Positions 37,900 through 51,856 of a stretch of 64,000 nt of DNA are shown piece after piece. The translations under genes were made by a program, and so were the position numbers. This stretch comes from Lacibacter cauensis (GTDB lineage: Bacteria > Bacteroidota > Bacteroidia > Chitinophagales > Chitinophagaceae), in NCBI RefSeq assembly GCF_007830055.1, contig NZ_VLLE01000003.1, positions 744,001 through 808,000 of the forward strand, read 5' to 3'. The notes below the pieces were generated by a model. That model had not been told where the DNA came from. It saw only the letters and a program-made list of their open reading frames with translations, and ran no database searches. How positions within the stretch are numbered: position 1 is the first letter of the stretch; each line of letters opens with the position of its first letter.

Positions 37900-37930
37900 A
37901 GTCTTGTTTTGAGGGGTGCAATATAAGGTA

Positions 37931-38030
37931 AAGTCGGGAAGTCGGAAAGTCCGGAAAGACAGAAAGTGCTTCGCAGTTTAATGTTTCTGGCACATTCTTT
38001 CGGTCTTTCCGACTAATCTCTTTCTGACTT
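37931..38030. repeat. GTCGGAAA-type short repeats in inverted arrangement
   Basis: Units like GTCGGAAA, GTCCGGAAA and GACAGAAA follow each other at 37931-37966, and the inverse complement occurs at 37997-38030. The best pairing arms are 37952-37966 and 37997-38011 (14/15), with a 30-base loop. The tract is between ftsX and DUF3098, has no clear U-tract and is unlikely to be a plain terminator. Confidence 0.55.
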
Positions 38031-39302: not shown

Positions 39303-42164
39303 ATGGAATATAAGTTCAGAGATATTGAGAAGAAATGGCAACAGCAATGGATCACTACAAATGCCTACAGGGTTTCAAATGTAAGTGAGAGGCCAAAATT
39401 TTATGTGTTGGATATGTTTCCCTATCCCAGTGGTGCAGGCTTGCACGTAGGTCATCCGCTGGGCTATATCGCCAGCGATATTTACAGCCGCTTTAAACGC
39501 CTCAAAGGGTTCAACGTATTACACCCGATGGGGTACGATGCGTTTGGTTTACCGGCTGAGCAATATGCGATTGAACATGGTGTACATCCTGCAGTAAGTA
39601 CCGATGCAAACATTGCCAACTTCCGCCGGCAGTTGGATAATATCGGTTTCTGTTACGATTGGGAGCGTGAAGTACGTACCTGCGATCCCGGTTATTACAA
39701 ATGGACACAGTGGATCTTTTTACAACTCTTCAATAGTTTTTACAACCGCATTACCAACAAAGCTGAAAAAATTGATGTGTTGATCGCATCGTTTGAAGCT
39801 GAGGGTTCTGCAACTCACGGCTACCGGCTCACGACTGCCGGCTTTACCGCCGACGAATGGAAAGGCTATGATGATGCAACCAAACAAAGCATACTCATGG
39901 ACTATCGCCTTGCTTATTGCGGTTATGGCGAAGTGAACTGGTGCGAAGCATTGGGTACCGTATTGGCAAATGATGAAGTGGTGAATGGTGTAAGTGAGCG
40001 TGGCGGACATCCGGTGGTGAAAAAGAAATTACGTCAGTGGTATTTGCGTATTACCGAATATGCCGATCGTTTATTGGAAGGATTGGAGCGCATTGAATTC
40101 AGCGAAAGCATGAAGGAAATGCAAACCAACTGGATTGGTAAAAGCAGTGGTGCTGAGATCGATTTTGCAATCAAAGGTCACAGTCAAAAACTCACGGTAT
40201 ACACAACGAGACCTGATACCATTTTCGGTGTTGATTTTATGGTAATTGCGCCTGAGTTGGATTTGGTTGACCAGATAAAATCGGCCGAACAAACAACTGC
40301 AGTGGATGAATACATTGCTTATGTAAAAAGCCGCAGTGAGCGTGAACGCCAGGCAGAGAAAAAAATCAGCGGTGTGTTTACCGGTGCTTATGCCGTAAAT
40401 CCATTCGATGGCAGAGAAATTCCGATCTGGATTTCTGAATATGTATTGGCGGGTTATGGTACCGGTGCTATTATGGCGGTGCCTTGTGGCGATGAACGTG
40501 ATTTCAAATTTGCAAAGCATTTTACTATTCCTATCACTAACATTATCGGCAATCATTTCAATGGCGAAGAAGCCAATGCTACAAAAGATGCACAGTTGCA
40601 GAATAGTGGCTTCTTAAACGGAACTCCGATGCGTGAAGCGGCTGAGATCGTTATTAATAAGCTGGAAGAAATGGGCATCGGCAAACGCAAAGTGAATTAC
40701 AAAATGCGTGATGCAGCGTTTAGCCGTCAACGTTACTGGGGCGAACCATTCCCGATTCAATGGAAAGCCGGCACTGCTTATCCATTAAGCGAAACGGAAT
40801 TGCCGTTGTTGTTACCGGAAGTGGATAGTTACAGTCCCGGTCCTGAAGGTGAAGGTCCGTTGGCCAATATACCGGAGTGGGTGGCGAAAGAATTAGAGAC
40901 AAACACAATGCCCGGTTATGCGGGCAGCAGCTGGTATTTCTTACGCTACATGGATCCGAAAAATGAAAACGCATTCTGCGACCGTGCAGTAAGCGATTAC
41001 TGGAACCAGGTTGATTTATACATTGGTGGTACTGAACATGCGGTTGGTCATTTGTTGTACAGCCGTATGTGGACGAAAGCCTTGTACGATCTCGGATACA
41101 TTGGTTTTGATGAACCATTTAAGAAGTTGGTGAATCAGGGGATGATACAAGGGAGTTCAAGGTTTGTTTATAGAGTAAATCTTAGAACAACAATGACTTC
41201 AAAATCAGAAACGATTTTCCTTTCAAAAAAATACTTTGACTTACTTGAATTAAATACAAGTGAAGCGAGGCTTATAGTAAAGAAGGCAATTGAAGAAGTC
41301 ATTGGTCAAGAAGTTGAAGATCCTCTACATTTTCATGAAAGTGTTTGGCATGTTGATGTCAACTTTGTCGATGGTTATGAACTAGATATCGAAGCGTTTA
41401 AAAAGTGGCGTAATGGAGAATATGCAAATGCTCAATTTATTTTGGAAAACGGCAAATACATCTGCGGCGCTGAAGTAGAAAAGATGAGTAAGAGCAAGTT
41501 CAACACCGTCAACCCCGATGATCTGGTGAATAAATACGGTGCCGATACATTCCGTATGTACGAGATGTTCCTTGGTCCGGTAGAGATCAGCAAGCCGTGG
41601 GATACAAAAGGGATCGAAGGTGTACATCGCTTCCTTAAAAAACTCTGGCGTTTGTTCTACGATGATCTGAAAGGTCAGGTATGGAATAACGACAAAGCAA
41701 CAGATGCAGAGTTGAAAGTGTTGCACAAAACCATTAAGAAAATTGAAGACGACACCGAGCGCTTCAGCTTCAACACCGGTGTAAGTACATTCATGATTGC
41801 TGTAAATGAACTCAGCGATTTAAAATGTCACAAGAAAGAAATACTCGAACAGTTGCTCATTCTCTTAACGCCGTATGCACCGCATGTGAGCGAAGAGTTG
41901 TGGAGCCTGCTGGGCAATAGTGGTTCTATTCTCGATGCATCCTTCCCCAAATTTGAAGCGAAGTATGTCACCGAATCAACCAAAGATTACCCGGTTGCCA
42001 TTAACGGTAAAACAAGAACCGAGCTTACACTCGATCTGAGTATTACGCAACAGGAAGTAGAGGCCATTGTACTGGCGAATGAAGTGGTGCAGAAATGGCT
42101 GGAAGGTAAACAACCGAAGAAGATCATTTATGTGAAAAACAAAATGATCAATATTGTAATTTAA
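39303..42164 (+). CDS. leuS: Leucyl-tRNA synthetase
   Basis: LeuRS charges tRNA-Leu. The 953 residues show the class I HIGH-like motif in PYPSGAGLHVGHPLGYIASD (about residues 38-57), a CP1 editing domain with TTRPDTIFGVDFMVIAPE and GTGAIMAVPCGDERDF (editing Asp), and the KMSKS loop in EVEKMSKSKFN near residue 723. The C-terminal anticodon-binding domain ends normally. Residues about 621-688, between NQGMIQGSSRFVYRV and HVDVNFV, are longer than I remember for Bacteroidota LeuRS by roughly 35 residues and use different codons (many AGA, AGG, CTT and ATA). The reading frame is intact. A terminator follows the stop. Confidence 0.96.
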   Translation: MEYKFRDIEKKWQQQWITTNAYRVSNVSERPKFYVLDMFPYPSGAGLHVGHPLGYIASDIYSRFKRLKGFNVLHPMGYDAFGLPAEQYAIEHGVHPAVSTDANIANFRRQLDNIGFCYDWEREVRTCDPGYYKWTQWIFLQLFNSFYNRITNKAEKIDVLIASFEAEGSATHGYRLTTAGFTADEWKGYDDATKQSILMDYRLAYCGYGEVNWCEALGTVLANDEVVNGVSERGGHPVVKKKLRQWYLRITEYADRLLEGLERIEFSESMKEMQTNWIGKSSGAEIDFAIKGHSQKLTVYTTRPDTIFGVDFMVIAPELDLVDQIKSAEQTTAVDEYIAYVKSRSERERQAEKKISGVFTGAYAVNPFDGREIPIWISEYVLAGYGTGAIMAVPCGDERDFKFAKHFTIPITNIIGNHFNGEEANATKDAQLQNSGFLNGTPMREAAEIVINKLEEMGIGKRKVNYKMRDAAFSRQRYWGEPFPIQWKAGTAYPLSETELPLLLPEVDSYSPGPEGEGPLANIPEWVAKELETNTMPGYAGSSWYFLRYMDPKNENAFCDRAVSDYWNQVDLYIGGTEHAVGHLLYSRMWTKALYDLGYIGFDEPFKKLVNQGMIQGSSRFVYRVNLRTTMTSKSETIFLSKKYFDLLELNTSEARLIVKKAIEEVIGQEVEDPLHFHESVWHVDVNFVDGYELDIEAFKKWRNGEYANAQFILENGKYICGAEVEKMSKSKFNTVNPDDLVNKYGADTFRMYEMFLGPVEISKPWDTKGIEGVHRFLKKLWRLFYDDLKGQVWNNDKATDAELKVLHKTIKKIEDDTERFSFNTGVSTFMIAVNELSDLKCHKKEILEQLLILLTPYAPHVSEELWSLLGNSGSILDASFPKFEAKYVTESTKDYPVAINGKTRTELTLDLSITQQEVEAIVLANEVVQKWLEGKQPKKIIYVKNKMINIVI

Positions 42165-42712: not shown

Positions 42713-42753
42713 CATAAAGAGTTTTGTATTTTCCAAGGATAAAATCATCACAC

Positions 42754-45700
42754 ATGAAGCATCTGTTATCAACAGGAATCATTTGCCTTATCAGTTTTTT
42801 TTCAACAGCACAAAACAGTTCGTATTTTTTGTCGAACCCAACACTTACACCCGATGGACAAACCGTTGTGTTTGCATTTGAAGGCGATTTGTGGAAAGCG
42901 AATGTGAACGACTTGCAGGCCACACGCATTACTGCTATGCAGGGCTACGAAACATCGCCACGTATTTCGCCCGATGGTAAATGGATTGCATTTACCGGTC
43001 GCCAGTATGGGAATGCAGATGTGTTTGTAATGCCATTGGCAGGAGGCGAGGTAAAACAAATTACGTTTCATAGCGGAAATGATGAAGTAACAAGCTGGAG
43101 CTGGGATAGTAAAAGTATTTACTTTAACAGCAGCCGTGCAGGACAGATAGCCGGTTTTAAAGTGGCTGCTGCGGGTGGTACACCACAACGTGTTTTTGGC
43201 AATTACTTTTTTCAATACGATCATAACCTGGTAGAGCACCCCGCAACCGGTGAAATCTTTTTTAACGATACCTGGGAAAGTGCCAGCCAGGTACAGCGCA
43301 AACGTTACAAAGGGCCTTTCAATCCCGATATTCAATCGTATAATTTCAAGACTAAGCAGCACAAAAAATACACAAGTTGGGAAGGGAAAGATTTTGCTGC
43401 AACCATTGATAAAAACGGTAATGTATTCTTTATTTCCGATGAGAACAATGGTGAATACAATTTGTACACACTCGATGCTGGTAAGAAAAAAGCATTGACC
43501 CGTTTTGCTTCTTCCATCAAAACACCGCAGGTAAATGCAAACGGTGGTAAAGTGGTTTTTGAAAAGGATTACCAGTTGTGGTTGTATGATGTAAAGACAG
43601 ATAAAGAACGCAAGCTGGATATTGGCATTGTACGCAATCATGTATTGCCAAAAGAAAAAGATTACGAAGTGCGTGGAAATATTTCTGCATTTGATGTGTC
43701 GCCCGATGCAAAGAAATTTGCTTTTGTGGTAAGAGGAGAGTTGTTTGTGAGTGATATAGACGGAAAGTTTGTACAGCAGATAAACAGAGGTTCGGCAGAG
43801 CGTGTACGTGAAGTACGCTGGATGAACGACAACAAAACGATCTTGTTTACACAAACTGTTGATGGTTATGCCAACCTGTTTACTGTTCGTGCCGACAGCA
43901 GTGCTGCACCCAAACAACTCACCAGCGATCAGCAAAACAACCGCAGTGTAATCGTTAATAAAAAACGTACACTTGCGGTTTATCTCAGCGGACGAAACGA
44001 AGTGCGTCTGCTCGATTTAAAAACACTGCAAAGTAAAACCCTTGTAAAAGATGAGCTGTGGGCTTTTCAAAACAGCGATCCCGGTTTTTCTCCCAACGAT
44101 GAATATGTGCTGTTTACTGCACGTTGCAATTTTGAAGAAGATATTTTAGTACATCACATCAAGAATAACAAAACCATCAATCTCACCAATAGTGGTGTAA
44201 CAGAAAACAGTCCTGTATGGTCGCCCGATGGTAAGTATATCTATTTTGTTTCGCAACGTTTGAAACCGGCTTATCCGTTTGGTATGGCGAATGCGAAAGT
44301 GTATCGTGTAGCATTGGAAAAAATGGATGAGCCTTATCGCATCGATAAGTTCAATGATTTGTTTAAAGAAGAAAAGAAAGAAGCAAAAGGCGCCAATGGC
44401 GATTCGGGTAAAGTCATCAACATTGATACAGACCTGATCATGGAACGACTGGAACAGATCGGGCCGTCTTTTGGCACACAGTATCTCATCAATGTGTATC
44501 AAAAAGGAGAGAAGACATCTGTATTGTATGCAAGCAATCATGGCGAAGGCCGGTTTGCAATTTGGAAAACAGTACTCGAATCATTTGAATCAACAAAAAC
44601 CGATAAGATTGCAGGCACAGATAATGCAGGCGGTTTGGATATTGTTGAAGCAGGTGATAAATATTTTGCATTGGGCAATGGAACCATCAATAAATTGAAT
44701 CTCGATGCTAACCGTATCGATCCGGTAAATATCAGCTATACCTTCCGTCGCAATCTGCAGGAAGAGTTTACACAAATGTTTTACGAAGCATGGGCAGGAA
44801 TGGAAGAAGGGTATTACGATGAAAATTTTCACGGACTTAACTGGAAGAAAACAAAAACCTATTACCAGCAGTTTCTTCCTTACCTGAACAACCGTGCAGA
44901 TTTGCGTACACTGCTCAACGATATGCTGGGCGAACTCAACTCGTCGCACCAGGGCTTTGCTACATTTGGTGATGATGAAACGATTGCATTAACAAGTGCT
45001 ACCATGGAAACAGGCATCATCTTCGAGAACGATGATCCGTACAAAGTAAAATACATCGTAAAACGTTCAGCCGCCGATCGTAAGAATATTGATATTAAGC
45101 CGGGTGATGTATTGGTGAAAGTGAATGATGAAACAGTGGATGCAAACAAAGACCGCAATGCTTATTTCACATTACCATCTCGTGACCGTGAACTGAAGCT
45201 AACGTTTAAGCGTGGTGCAGAAATGGTGCAGGTAAAGATTCATCCGCAGGCAACGTTGTTTAATAACTTGTACGATGAATGGGTTGACAACAACCAGAAG
45301 CGTGTAGATGAAAAAAGTAAAGGACGTATTGCGTATGGTTATATGAAGAATATGGGTACAGGTGAGCTGGAACAGTTTATTAATGATATGACGCAGGAGT
45401 TAACGAGCAAGGATGCACTCATCTTCGATCTGCGTTATAACACCGGCGGTAATGTGCACGATGAAGTGTTGAAGTTTTTAAGTCAGCGTTCTTACCTGCA
45501 ATGGAAATACCGTGAAGGAAAACTGGCACCACAATCCAATTTTGCACCTTCTGATAAGCCGATCATTTTACTTATCAATGAACAATCGTTGAGCGATGCA
45601 GAAATGACAGCACAAGGCTTTAAAGGATTGAAACTGGGTAAGATCATTGGCAACGGAACCTATCGCTGGATCATCTTCACCAGCGGTATTGGTTTGGTGG

Positions 45701-45879
45701 ATGGTTCGAGTGTGCGTATGCCGGCTTGGGGTTGTTATTCTTTGGAAGGGAAAGACCTCGAGATAAACGGTGTTGAACCGGATATCCGCATCATCAACAG
45801 TTTTGAAGATAAACTCAACGGCAACGATCCGCAACTGGATAAAGCCATTGAAGAAATATTGAAGCAGATTAAGTCGTGA
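42754..45879 (+). CDS. Tricorn-like secreted S41 peptidase
   Basis: This giant exported protease has 1041 residues. Start ATG 42754 opens a signal peptide (MKHLLSTGIICLISFFSTAQ). Residues 20-330 form a TolB/tricorn-like beta propeller with repeated LTPDGQTVVF, SPDGKWIAFTGRQYG, DVSPDAKKFAFVV and SPDGKYIYFVSQ blades; a second propeller extends to about 660. A tricorn C1-like helical region (EEFTQMFYEAWAGMEEGYYDENFHG) and a PDZ domain (KNIDIKPGDVLVKVNDETVD) follow. The S41 catalytic domain has IFDLRYNTGGNVHDEVL and the nucleophile region NEQSLSDAEM (Ser near 945-947). Such proteins degrade peptides outside the cytosol in Bacteroidota. It is monocistronic. Confidence 0.92.
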   Translation: MKHLLSTGIICLISFFSTAQNSSYFLSNPTLTPDGQTVVFAFEGDLWKANVNDLQATRITAMQGYETSPRISPDGKWIAFTGRQYGNADVFVMPLAGGEVKQITFHSGNDEVTSWSWDSKSIYFNSSRAGQIAGFKVAAAGGTPQRVFGNYFFQYDHNLVEHPATGEIFFNDTWESASQVQRKRYKGPFNPDIQSYNFKTKQHKKYTSWEGKDFAATIDKNGNVFFISDENNGEYNLYTLDAGKKKALTRFASSIKTPQVNANGGKVVFEKDYQLWLYDVKTDKERKLDIGIVRNHVLPKEKDYEVRGNISAFDVSPDAKKFAFVVRGELFVSDIDGKFVQQINRGSAERVREVRWMNDNKTILFTQTVDGYANLFTVRADSSAAPKQLTSDQQNNRSVIVNKKRTLAVYLSGRNEVRLLDLKTLQSKTLVKDELWAFQNSDPGFSPNDEYVLFTARCNFEEDILVHHIKNNKTINLTNSGVTENSPVWSPDGKYIYFVSQRLKPAYPFGMANAKVYRVALEKMDEPYRIDKFNDLFKEEKKEAKGANGDSGKVINIDTDLIMERLEQIGPSFGTQYLINVYQKGEKTSVLYASNHGEGRFAIWKTVLESFESTKTDKIAGTDNAGGLDIVEAGDKYFALGNGTINKLNLDANRIDPVNISYTFRRNLQEEFTQMFYEAWAGMEEGYYDENFHGLNWKKTKTYYQQFLPYLNNRADLRTLLNDMLGELNSSHQGFATFGDDETIALTSATMETGIIFENDDPYKVKYIVKRSAADRKNIDIKPGDVLVKVNDETVDANKDRNAYFTLPSRDRELKLTFKRGAEMVQVKIHPQATLFNNLYDEWVDNNQKRVDEKSKGRIAYGYMKNMGTGELEQFINDMTQELTSKDALIFDLRYNTGGNVHDEVLKFLSQRSYLQWKYREGKLAPQSNFAPSDKPIILLINEQSLSDAEMTAQGFKGLKLGKIIGNGTYRWIIFTSGIGLVDGSSVRMPAWGCYSLEGKDLEINGVEPDIRIINSFEDKLNGNDPQLDKAIEEILKQIKS

Positions 45880-45882
45880 GTT

Positions 45883-45910
45883 GTGAATGGTCAATAGTGA
45901 ATGGTGAATG
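45883..45910 (+). repeat. GTGAATGGT-type dispersed repeat, copy 1
   Basis: A 28-base tract of GTGAATGG-like units immediately follows the S41 gene's stop. It is matched 26/28 by the inverse complement of 48603-48630. Confidence 0.7.
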
Positions 45911-48602: not shown

Positions 48603-48630
48603 CATTCACTATTCACCATTGACCATTCAC
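48603..48630 (-). repeat. GTGAATGGT-type dispersed repeat, copy 2 (inverted)
   Basis: The inverse complement matches copy 1 at 45883-45910 in 26 of 28 positions. It lies between the M23-like gene and ruvB. Confidence 0.7.
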
Positions 48631-48661
48631 CACTTCCCCTTTTTCCTTAGTTTTACACCCA

Positions 48662-49693
48662 ATGGCCAATCCCAATTTAAATAGCGATAAAGAAGGACTG
48701 AGTGCAGCCGAAAAAGAATTTGAAAACAATATTCGTCCGTCGAATATTGAAGAGTTCAGTGGTCAGCAGCAGATTATCGATAACCTCAAAATCTTCATTA
48801 AAGCAGCGAAGATGCGTGGTGAAGCATTAGATCATGTATTGTTTCATGGTCCTCCCGGTTTGGGTAAGACAACCCTGAGCCGCATTGTTGCTAATGAGTT
48901 GGGAGTAAGCATTAAAGAAACCAGTGGACCGGTAATTGAAAAGCCGGGAGATCTTGCCGGGTTACTGACAGGGCTTGAAGCAAACGACGTCTTGTTTATT
49001 GATGAGATCCATCGGTTAAGTACAGTTGTTGAAGAATATCTCTACGCAGCCATGGAAGATTACCGCATTGATATTATGATCGACAGCGGACCCAATGCAA
49101 GAAGCATCCAGATCAACCTTAATCCTTTTACACTGATTGGTGCAACTACCAGAAGTGGTTTGTTAACAGCACCGTTGTTATCTCGCTTTGCCATTAAATC
49201 CCGGTTGGAATATTACAATGCCGAAACGTTACAGAAAATTATTCAACGTGCTGCAGGTATTTTAAATGTTAAGATTACCAGCGATGCGGCAAAAGAAATT
49301 GCAGGCCGCAGCAGGGCTACACCACGTATTGCCAATGGATTGTTGCGTCGTATGCGTGATTTTGCCATGGTGTTGGGCAATGGCGTTATTGATCTTGGTG
49401 TTACACAACATGGTCTTAAAGCATTGAATGTTGATGAGTATGGTTTGGATGATATGGATAATAAAATCCTTACCGCCATCATCGATAAATTCAAAGGTGG
49501 TCCGGTTGGTATTACCACCATTGCAACAGCAGTAGGTGAAGAGCCGGGCACATTGGAAGAAGTGTACGAACCGTTTTTAATACAGGAAGGTTTTTTGCAA
49601 CGCACACCAAGAGGAAGAGAGGTAACGGCAAAAGCCTATGAACATTTAGGAAAGAAACCTTACGGTGGCAGTACGCCTACGTTGTTTTCATAA
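48662..49693 (+). CDS. ruvB: Holliday junction branch migration helicase RuvB
   Basis: RuvB is the hexameric ATPase motor of RuvAB. The 343 residues show the start motif [14 protein letters not shown] (as [14 protein letters not shown]), Walker [14 protein letters not shown], Walker [11 protein letters not shown], sensor 1 [14 protein letters not shown] with the arginine finger region LLSRF, and the C-terminal winged helix [20 protein letters not shown]. The gene is monocistronic with a strong terminator. ruvC is 16 kb away and ruvA is not in the window. Confidence 0.97.
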
Positions 49694-50615: not shown

Positions 50616-51722
50616 TTATTGAACAGCTATTCCATTGCAGATTTTTTTAGCAATAGCAGGGCCTTCGTAAATAAAACCGGTCCACACCTGTACCAGCACG
50701 GCTCCGGCCTGTAATTTTTCATTGGCATCGGCTGCTGAAAAAATGCCGCCGCTGGCAATAACCGGTATTTCACCGTTTGTTTTTTGAGTAATGTACTGCA
50801 CAATTTCGGTGCTGCGCTGTTTCACCGGTAAACCACTTAATCCGCCTGCACCAATGGCGGTTACAATTGCAGCATCGGTTATTAATCCTTCTCTGCTGAT
50901 GGTGGTGTTACTCGCTACCAATCCGTCCAGCTGAATTTCTTTTGCAAGGTCAATCACATCATCCAGCTGCGACTGTGTTAAGTCGGGTGCTATTTTTAGT
51001 AAGATCGGTTTTTCAACAACCGAATCTATTTTCAGTTTCAAACGTTCGGTACGCAGTGTTTGCAAATGCGAAAGAATTTTACGTAACGAATCTTTCTCCT
51101 GCAGTTCACGCAGACCGGGTGTATTGGGGCTGCTTACATTCACTACGAAATAATCTACATAATCAAACAACTCATTAAAGCAGATCTCGTAATCTTTCCA
51201 TGCATCTTCATTCGGAGTTACTTTGTTCTTACCGATGTTTCCGCCTATGATGAGCCGTGAATGGTGCGTGGTGAGTGGTGAGTTTTCGTACTTCGTACTT
51301 TGTACTTCGTGCTTTTCTTTCCATTTCTTCAATCGTTCTGCAACAACCTTTACACCATCGTTATTAAAACCCATACGGTTGATGATGGCCTTGTCTTTTG
51401 GTAAACGGAAGAGGCGTGGTTGATCATTCCCATCCTGTGGTTTTGGTGTTACAGTACCAATCTCAACAAAACCAAAACCAAGCACTTCCAGTTCACGCAG
51501 GTACTTTGCATTTTTATCGAAACCTGCTGCAAGTCCAACACGGTTCTTAAATTCTAACCCCCAACTTTCGAAAGCCAGTTTTTTATTCTTTGCCTGAAAA
51601 TTTGCAGCGAGTATTTTTTTAATGAAGCCGATGGAGCAGAAAAACCGCAGTGCATTCATTGCGAAGTAGTGTACTTTCTCTGCATCAAACCAAAAGAAAA
51701 TGGAGCGTATAAGCTGGTACAT
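50616..51722 (-). CDS. pyrD: Dihydroorotate dehydrogenase (quinone)
   Basis: This class 2 enzyme oxidises dihydroorotate to orotate in pyrimidine synthesis and passes electrons to quinone at the inner membrane. Start ATG 51722 opens MYQLIRSIFFWFDAEKVHYFAMN, the usual membrane-associated helices. FMN and substrate landmarks are KNRVGLAAGFDKNAKYL, NRMGFNNDG, IIGGNIGKNKVTPNEDA, the catalytic-Ser region VNVSSPNTPGLRELQ and a late GGIFSAADA. Residues about 135-158 (the KHEVQSTKYENSPLTTHHSR stretch), between the RLKKW helix and LIIGGNIGKNK, are an in-frame extra segment whose DNA is repeat-like. Total length of 368 is above the usual 340-345. Confidence 0.94.
   Translation of the reverse strand: MYQLIRSIFFWFDAEKVHYFAMNALRFFCSIGFIKKILAANFQAKNKKLAFESWGLEFKNRVGLAAGFDKNAKYLRELEVLGFGFVEIGTVTPKPQDGNDQPRLFRLPKDKAIINRMGFNNDGVKVVAERLKKWKEKHEVQSTKYENSPLTTHHSRLIIGGNIGKNKVTPNEDAWKDYEICFNELFDYVDYFVVNVSSPNTPGLRELQEKDSLRKILSHLQTLRTERLKLKIDSVVEKPILLKIAPDLTQSQLDDVIDLAKEIQLDGLVASNTTISREGLITDAAIVTAIGAGGLSGLPVKQRSTEIVQYITQKTNGEIPVIASGGIFSAADANEKLQAGAVLVQVWTGFIYEGPAIAKKICNGIAVQ
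51257..51316. repeat. Short-period repeat inside pyrD
   Basis: GTGAATGGTGCGTGGTGAG-like units (51257-51282) are joined to CGTACTTCGTACTTTGTACTT-like units (51287-51310). The first half resembles the intergenic repeats at 45.9 and 48.6 kb. The tract is translated within PyrD without breaking the frame. Confidence 0.6.
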
Positions 51723-51856
51723 GCGTGCGAAGATAAACTTCAATTGCCGTTCGTAGATTAACAACAATGATTTGGATTGAATTCTTTTGAAGCCTTAACT
51801 TTGAATTAGAAAGTTGCATAAACAACTATTTAACGATTGAACCTAAAAAAATTTCT

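Follow-up and report, generated by a model that had tools for sequence, protein, structure and literature searches.

Our analysis supports the original prediction that a loop of the class 2 dihydroorotate dehydrogenase (PyrD) of Lacibacter cauensis contains the in-frame translation of a dispersed short-period repeat. The reading that we favour, with a probability of about 0.7 for its two parts taken jointly, is that the insert is a copy of a dispersed class of heptamer arrays settled in a tolerated loop, and that these arrays are arms or leftovers of cassettes carrying a four-helix-bundle gene of the TIGR02436 family. The interest of the case is that a dispersed DNA repeat has repeatedly been made into protein at the same enzyme loops, its period being kept while sequence and peptide change.

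Two heptameric arrays in a lengthened loop of PyrD

The window, i.e. the whole stretch of 64,000 nucleotides that was analysed, comprises the following features at the pyrD locus:

50616..51767, minus strand: pyrD, quinone-dependent dihydroorotate dehydrogenase (class 2); uninterrupted ORF of 383 residues matching NF003652 with E=7e-140
51255..51320, minus strand: lengthened PyrD loop, codons K150-R171, located between helix 136-159 and strand 173-178 of the AlphaFold2 model
51257..51283, plus strand: period-7 array 1, GTGAATG/GTGAGTG type; the pyrD strand reads CTCACCA and codes approximately for SPLTTHHSR
51285..51314, plus strand: period-7 array 2, TTCGTAC type; the pyrD strand reads GAAGTAC and codes approximately for HEVQSTKYE

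Tandem Repeats Finder resolved the translated repeat into these two adjoining period-7 arrays within the pyrD ORF, both read through in frame and located where the prediction had placed them. From the tryptophan to the strand, the loop (RLKKW-KEKHEVQSTKYENSPLTTHHSR-LIIGGN) comprises 22 residues. The shortest loops of the family have 4 to 6 residues, with 4 in L188 and 6 in L037 (RLQQW-KARKSN-LIIGGN, the L. cauensis loop being 16 longer), and many have 8 to 14. The extra residues that had been announced are real, but the proposed size of about 24 was too high, the excess amounting to about 8 to 18 residues. In three displayed alignments to solved DHODHs, the gap opens exactly at the insert. The ORF is open throughout and encodes an intact class 2 PyrD with unharmed conserved motifs, again as anticipated.

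In an AlphaFold2 model of moderate quality only (33 family sequences, mean pLDDT of 77), residues 156-169 form the longest stretch with a pLDDT below 50, shorter ones being found at residues 1-3, 121-127, 214-218 and 305-308. Helix-to-strand loops of such barrels point away from the active site. The pyrD copy lengthens a helix-strand loop without touching the conserved motifs and, since these are intact, the enzyme should remain functional and the insert should be near neutral. There is no complementarity between the two arrays, and the insert contains no ORF of its own; it is not an S23/TIGR02436 ORF flanked by inverted repeats, as the cassettes of 23S rRNA intervening sequences (IVS) are.

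Dispersal of the arrays in the L. cauensis genome

Searching the genome for the 18-nt sequence GTGAATGGTGAATGGTGA with at most 2 mismatches gave 95 matches (33+62) versus 7 (5+2) for the reversed pattern, an excess over chance; overlapping copies within one array were counted separately in these figures, and clustering by hand led to about 55 arrays. The GTACTTC unit has 6 genome matches with at most one mismatch, one of them being pyrD. A unit-blind scan covered 1.26 Mb of the genome, sampled as 61 stretches with the window among them. It detected 62 period-7 arrays scoring at least 13, and just 0 to 5 arrays at each of nine other periods between 4 and 13. The 62 arrays correspond to heptanucleotide tandem repeats in the sense of a 7-nt unit in tandem, dispersed over a genome. 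The repertoire is not limited to one or a few fixed units, as 85 distinct canonical units were counted in a set of 142 arrays (L. cauensis, the same-genus genome G083 and family DNA, with several units per genome). The score cut-off of 13 was also applied in the inverted-partner test, the 20-kb stretches and the unit-motif analysis; it was set to 12 for the synteny comparison with G083, 14 for 80 family loci and 10 for the comparison of gene flanks.

Within the window, the first kind of repeat was found at the two further positions expected from the prediction, and two other short-period repeats were listed:

45872..45910, plus strand: period-7 array, GTGAATG type, overlapping the stop of ORF 42724-45879; an ATGAGTG-type array occupies the orthologous site of G083
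48604..48632, minus strand: period-7 array, GTGAATG type, upstream of ORF 48662-49693; an array with a similar unit is found at the G083 site
39814..39843, plus strand: degenerate repeat CTCACGACTACCGG in leuS (39303-42164); the reported period of 14 corresponds to two unlike heptamers, in frame
37930..38030, no strand assigned: intergenic pair of inverted short-period arms, with an 8-nt unit (AAAGTCGG-like) in L. cauensis

The leuS repeat is below the threshold for a period-7 array in L. cauensis, and the same site of G083 carries a period-7 array of AATTCCC type. At the site of the intergenic pair, both arms have a 7-nt unit in G083 (AGTTCAT and ATGAACT). Period 8 is a minority, with 10 arrays versus 75 of period 7 in the 80 family loci.

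An inverted partner was found within 150 nt for 29 of 96 arrays. The corresponding control counts were 8 for reversed, 16 for complemented and 13 for direct partners, and 5 in random flanks. Seven hand-picked pairs of GTGAATG arrays less than 100 bp apart, an observation made by eye and not computed, are all oriented plus then minus.

We looked for a larger conserved element around the GTGAATG arrays by comparing the flanks of 21 L. cauensis loci with BLAST, and this candidate was dropped: the long flank matches that were inspected come from overlap between the retrieved sequences or from inverted arms, and 4 aligned loci have unconserved spacers. A common motif of the units was also rejected as a recognition site, being degenerate and too weak for such a role (EM log-likelihood of 34.3 versus 18.3 +/- 1.9 for shuffled units). 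The few sites that were aligned show neither a target-site duplication nor a conserved terminus.

In-frame arrays in other genes

Fourteen of the 62 arrays lie within long ORFs of ten L. cauensis genes, namely pyrD, hutU, mutL, hemC, a heavy-metal P-type ATPase gene, lipB, an rsmF-like gene, fmt, prmC and a waaA-like gene, the suffix "-like" indicating that the best NCBIfam model matched below its cut-off. The expectation that the DNA units are repetitive genome-wide and that the same kind enters other genes was borne out. The two-array composite of pyrD (EVQSTKYENSPLTTHHSRL) recurs twice in the 1.26 Mb, in prmC (EVRGKKYEVRRTAAALATHHSPL, E=2e-6) and in a trmN-like gene (EVRSMKYEVRSVGTPLTTHHSPL, E=8e-6), with identical array order and in frame in all three genes. 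In prmC and the trmN-like gene, it directly precedes the conserved motif LLDIGTG or ILDIGAG. Both arms of an inverted pair are in frame in hemC, the P-type ATPase gene and the rsmF-like gene.

The positions of such inserts were also compared between relatives. In hutU, the L. cauensis insert at residues 163-182 is absent from 10 of the 13 relatives shown, and in one other genus the site is occupied by an array of a different unit. Among 30 leuS genes, arrays were found at three further positions, each of them in 1 to 4 genes. Separately, the leuS matches of six genomes are split by large extra segments, at about residue 290 in G013, G026, G028, G044 and G057 and at about residue 530 in G007, the open frames of these genes measuring 1100-1315 codons.

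Recurrence of the arrays at loops of PyrD in the Chitinophagaceae

The nearest PyrD from a named genome is that of Lacibacter luteus (91%). We collected 170 family loci from the nearest relatives (the best 90 of 143 matching genomes by score, plus the best 80 of 316), of which 152 are distinct and 148 were used; L106 (which has strong arrays), L053, L116 and L127 were left out, their ORF not being extractable. A window was counted as period-7 when 16 or more of its 21 positions matched at offset 7. Among nine periods tested on the 148 aligned genes, period 7 alone recurs. Its windows are found, in L. cauensis numbering, at residues 61-72 (10 genes), 145-180 (up to 36 genes per 12-residue bin), 229-252 (up to 5 per bin) and 289-312 (up to 17 per bin), plus the N-terminus in 2 genes; the eight other offsets give 0 to 2 genes per bin.

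Arrays are present in 51 of the 148 family pyrD genes versus none in 40 genomes of other Bacteroidota families, sampled from 117 with any match. By sub-sample, the array-bearing genes number 33 of 61, 10 of 27 and, in the more distant one, 8 of 60. Because the nearest relatives were sampled, the overall fraction is not a family-wide rate. Array richness is uneven between genomes: no array was found in one 20-kb stretch each of G039, G102, G114, G066, G119 and G141, two stretches of G085 contained 0 and 1, and one of G055 contained 4.

The units in pyrD vary (ATCACTC, GACTCAA, AATTACG, ACTTTCA, CGTCATC, ACTACAA, CGACTCC, GAAAATC and others). At the main site, 41 tips bear an array, for which at least 32 parsimony changes are required on a FastTree tree built without the array columns, a raw count to which the detection threshold adds noise. 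A conserved domain common to all close relatives would have contradicted the original prediction. The nearest relatives (L061 and L032) have similar residues, yet the insert is not a conserved domain, since farther out its unit changes or disappears.

These data bear on two functional explanations. The loop might be a selected protein feature, such as a partner-binding or regulatory insertion of PyrD, and this would agree with its repeated occurrence at a single loop (41 of 148 genes). However, the peptide varies between genera because the DNA unit differs, the other 107 genes have no array at the main loop, the same kind of array is found in other PyrD loops and in unrelated enzymes, and the loop is predicted at a pLDDT below 50 in the moderate-quality model. 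We regard selection of the peptide as extremely unlikely. The arrays might alternatively act at the DNA or RNA level, as a regulatory hairpin, as a transcription or translation pause, or through phase variation, with slippage in steps of 7 nt. Several sites do have inverted arms, including pairs in the pyrD of some other genera and elsewhere in the L. cauensis genome, and heptanucleotide tracts are known phase-variation elements in other organisms. Against this, the same arrays occur in many unrelated genes and in intergenic DNA, and array-bearing and array-free pyrD loops have similar hairpin energies overall (7 of 41 versus about 6% of 106 below a z of -2; Mann-Whitney p=0.55), on which ground hairpin selection at these loops was dropped. 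Frame-shifted pyrD genes were not seen among the 148 genes, a weak argument in a set selected for open frames of at least 320 codons. A function at this level appears very improbable.

Unit repertoires and orthologous sites

Six units were counted over 30 genomes, overlapping tandem copies being counted separately and the pyrD arrays included. All six are also found outside pyrD in the genomes whose pyrD bears them. CCGTCAT has 12 matches in G004, 3 of which come from its pyrD, a single match in G073 and none in the remaining 28 genomes, and AAAATCG has 22 in G016 (3 in its pyrD) and at most 2 in any other. AAACTAC is most frequent in a pyrD owner, G100 (35, with 2 in pyrD), followed by G071 (24). 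For CAATCGT, G003 (216) and G071 (46) precede the pyrD owners G013 (16, with 3 in pyrD) and G138 (7, with 2 in pyrD). GTGAATG is found in 21 of the 30 genomes. The converse does not hold: G055 has 256 matches of GTACTTC, yet its pyrD (L146) has no such array.

About 140 kb of L. cauensis were compared with their collinear counterpart in G083 (72-88% identity). In the collinear stretch, 17 arrays of L. cauensis and 9 of G083 score at least 12. Eight of the 17 have a G083 array at most 120 nt from the mapped place (corresponding to 6 of the 9), several with another unit; in these counts, 3 L. cauensis arrays could not be mapped and the pyrD arrays of G083 are under the threshold though visible. 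Two other loci show unusual arrangements. About 220 bp at L225:2516-2734 (G003:C3) are covered head to tail by four heptamer arrays that differ in their units, as if the unit switched and the period stayed. At L221:4900-5750 (G055:C1), about 7 tandem copies of a unit of about 79 bp contain GTACGAA heptamers and a GGTTCGAA motif, which we take to resemble a tRNA T-loop.

The main rival to a dispersed origin is local replication slippage, in which the polymerase would have duplicated loop codons in 7-nt steps and nothing would have come from elsewhere. The 7-nt period with graded units speaks for it, as does the retention of arrays at orthologous sites of G083, some with a changed unit, given that local slippage followed by drift can also produce an altered unit at a conserved site. 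A heptamer slippage idea has been put forward by Mrazek, as cited in the available text of PMC4679880 and PMC4692102. On the other side, the units of pyrD are also scattered over the rest of that genome, and prmC and the trmN-like gene contain the two-array composite as well. CCGTCAT and AAAATCG each occur in pyrD and elsewhere in one genome while being almost absent from the other 29 genomes tested. We consider slippage alone rather unlikely.

Four-helix-bundle genes between inverted heptameric repeats

At L345:6642-7124 (G000:C2:714642-715124), a stretch of 484 bp in L. cauensis faces 13 bp in G083 and is surrounded by inverted GTGAATG-type arrays. It encodes a protein of the PF05635/TIGR02436 family, i.e. 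the S23 or 23S-rRNA intervening-sequence family. All five TIGR02436 genes found in the sampled L. cauensis DNA are flanked by inverted heptameric repeats, with five different units and inverted-repeat scores of 23, 18.5, 23.5, 15.5 and 22; arrays over the threshold lie on both sides of three of them and on one side of two. The five loci thus share the S23 arrangement of an ORF between inverted repeats. Two genes were noticed through their flanks (L345:6671-7033 by a synteny gap and L381:3442-3822 by the ORF-flank scan) and three through protein searches. An iterated HMM search retrieved no further TIGR02436 gene, flanked or unflanked, in the sampled L. cauensis DNA, and no S23 relative was confirmed in viral contigs.

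Away from these genes, one arm unit was found within one mismatch in 24 of 60 arrays and the others in 1 to 6; exact recurrence is limited, for four of the five families, to 1 to 3 of the 60 arrays. Just 2 of the 62 arrays scoring at least 13 are within 500 nt of a four-helix gene, and most arrays are therefore distant from any cassette.

A tblastn search of plasmids with one four-helix protein retrieved 23 records, mostly from Nostoc, Calothrix and relatives, a group known for heptamer repeats in the part of the literature available to us. We used 21 of these records, H2 and H4 being omitted as likely duplicates of H1 and H5; L410 and L411 have no gene tables and their ORF bounds were set roughly. 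Arrays are present within 200 nt on both sides of 10 of the 21 loci and on one side of 8, and an inverted repeat of at least 15 was found in 13. The control of 144 other ORFs from five of the same plasmids gave 0, 18 and 2, respectively. Of 952 L. cauensis ORFs, 9 have an inverted repeat of at least 15 and 6 are flanked by arrays on either side. The 9 comprise 2 four-helix genes, 3 RAYT-like ORFs, 1 GxxExxY gene and 3 others. All control ORFs are mechanical ORFs and not annotated genes. Six units of the cyanobacterial cassettes recur in 0 to 1 L. cauensis arrays.

Several loci met along the way are recorded here. The GxxExxY gene (TIGR04256) at L391:17203-17589 lies between inverted repeats of the ACCACAGAGACACAGAG kind and is possibly another cargo of a similar element. 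A 262-residue ORF between inverted arrays (L386:13754-14542) has no NCBIfam match at E 0.001. In three cyanobacterial plasmid loci (L374, L375 and L378), the four-helix gene is inside a CRISPR-cas operon, twice in the gap between cas6 and cas4 and once between cas10/cmr2 and a cmr3-like gene. The three RAYT-like ORFs, recognised by eye (L348:12932-13396, L353:3916-4461 and L393:1044-1565), have near-perfect, non-heptameric inverted repeats, and the first coincides with a Y1_Tnp match.

The RAYT-like ORFs with their inverted flanks raise the question of whether the arrays are gene-less copies of REP or REPIN kind moved by a Y1 (RAYT) transposase, all the more as 15 of the 16 genomes examined contain genes for a Y1 transposase. 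But the repeats beside these ORFs are of a different sequence from the heptamers, and the numbers diverge: a single weak Y1 match was found in G003 despite its 310 GTGAATG matches, versus five in G066, where GTGAATG has no match. The Y1 transposase was dropped as driver, its counts being uncorrelated with the arrays over the 16 genomes, and we hold this origin to be highly unlikely.

Proposed origin of the PyrD insert

We propose that the insert belongs to a class of elements made of tandem heptanucleotide arrays, some of them paired, either back to back or as inverted arms that face one another. Such a class would be recognised by its 7-nt period instead of its sequence, the repertoire of units being specific to each genome. 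New copies would arrive in intergenic DNA as well as in genes, presumably by a copying movement, and genic copies would persist only with an open frame and added residues that form a tolerated loop. Units may then drift, be homogenised or be replaced, so that a site could persist while its sequence turns over. The association with four-helix genes suggests that the arrays travel as arms, and gene-less remains, of TIGR02436 (S23/IVP) cassettes, in which the four-helix protein may have a role; the PyrD insert is possibly descended from the arms of such S23/IVS-like cassettes. The 7-nt step itself may be set by a polymerase or another enzyme.

A broader view, which we put forward only tentatively and hold to be possible although not probable, is that the heptamer repeats found in Bacteroidota and in cyanobacteria belong to a single mobile system consisting of S23/TIGR02436 cassettes and their gene-less arms. 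Its period would be kept, for example, by a polymerase or reverse transcriptase copying or slipping in 7-nt steps on a hairpin handled by an Avd-like protein, and conserved enzymes would keep gaining in-frame loops from it. In that case, two things so far unexplained, the heptamer repeats and the S23 proteins of intervening sequences, would account for each other.

If upheld in a full census, the link between arrays and S23/IVP genes would provide a handle on the nature of heptanucleotide repeats and on the function of S23 proteins. Loops of the pyrD type offer a natural test bed for the origin of new protein segments, and annotators should be aware that variable loops in Chitinophagaceae enzymes can derive from repeats. 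Among the papers listed by full-text searches, in a collection with few subscription journals, we recognised none as linking heptamer repeats with S23 or four-helix genes or as describing in-frame heptamer loops in conserved enzymes, a coverage that leaves novelty unproven.

Comparison with known systems

The STRRs of cyanobacteria are heptanucleotide tandem repeats. Tandem 7-nt units scattered in genomes also include the LSSRs, GGGNATC in Xanthomonas and Nostoc, and TAACTGA in Beggiatoaceae; in the available text, such repeats are reported from Cyanobacteria, some Bacteroidetes and others, with a minority of sets in or overlapping ORFs (PMC4679880, PMC4692102). As far as these texts go, the reported repeats have one or few fixed units and are mostly intergenic, being under-represented in ORFs or located at ORF ends. 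The heptamers of L. cauensis and its family differ by their many units, their in-frame position in conserved enzymes, their presence at the same loops across genera and their inverted pairs.

The intervening sequences of 23S rRNA contain an S23p ORF bounded by inverted repeats, according to the available part of PMC4990558. The four-helix cassettes described here likewise encode PF05635/TIGR02436 proteins between inverted repeats; however, these repeats are heptameric, and the cassettes appear to be placed among protein genes, as the first of the five L. cauensis loci is, instead of within 23S rRNA. With the REPIN/RAYT system and MITEs, the arrays have in common that they are short, non-autonomous and sometimes paired as inverted repeats. 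They appear to differ in that no conserved core, conserved terminus or target-site duplication was found in the sites aligned and, as regards REPIN/RAYT, in that array number does not follow the copy number of Y1 transposases in the 16 genomes.

Rickettsia palindromic elements, as described in the accessible portion of PMC10969869, are short, dispersed and found in frame inside unrelated metabolic genes. The likeness drawn by the original prediction holds for the way the repeat works, in-frame insertion being observed in pyrD, hutU, mutL, hemC, lipB, fmt, prmC and the rsmF-, waaA- and trmN-like genes, but does not extend to membership. The Rickettsia elements measure about 150 bp and have a conserved peptide per element, whereas here the 7-nt period alone is conserved and the units are genome-specific. 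Nor do the arrays form a palindromic or conserved family, as the pyrD copy is non-palindromic, with arrays that do not complement each other, and spacers and units are unconserved. The Rickettsia palindromic element is thus the nearest analogy to the PyrD insert, which is set apart from it by the lack of a conserved sequence.
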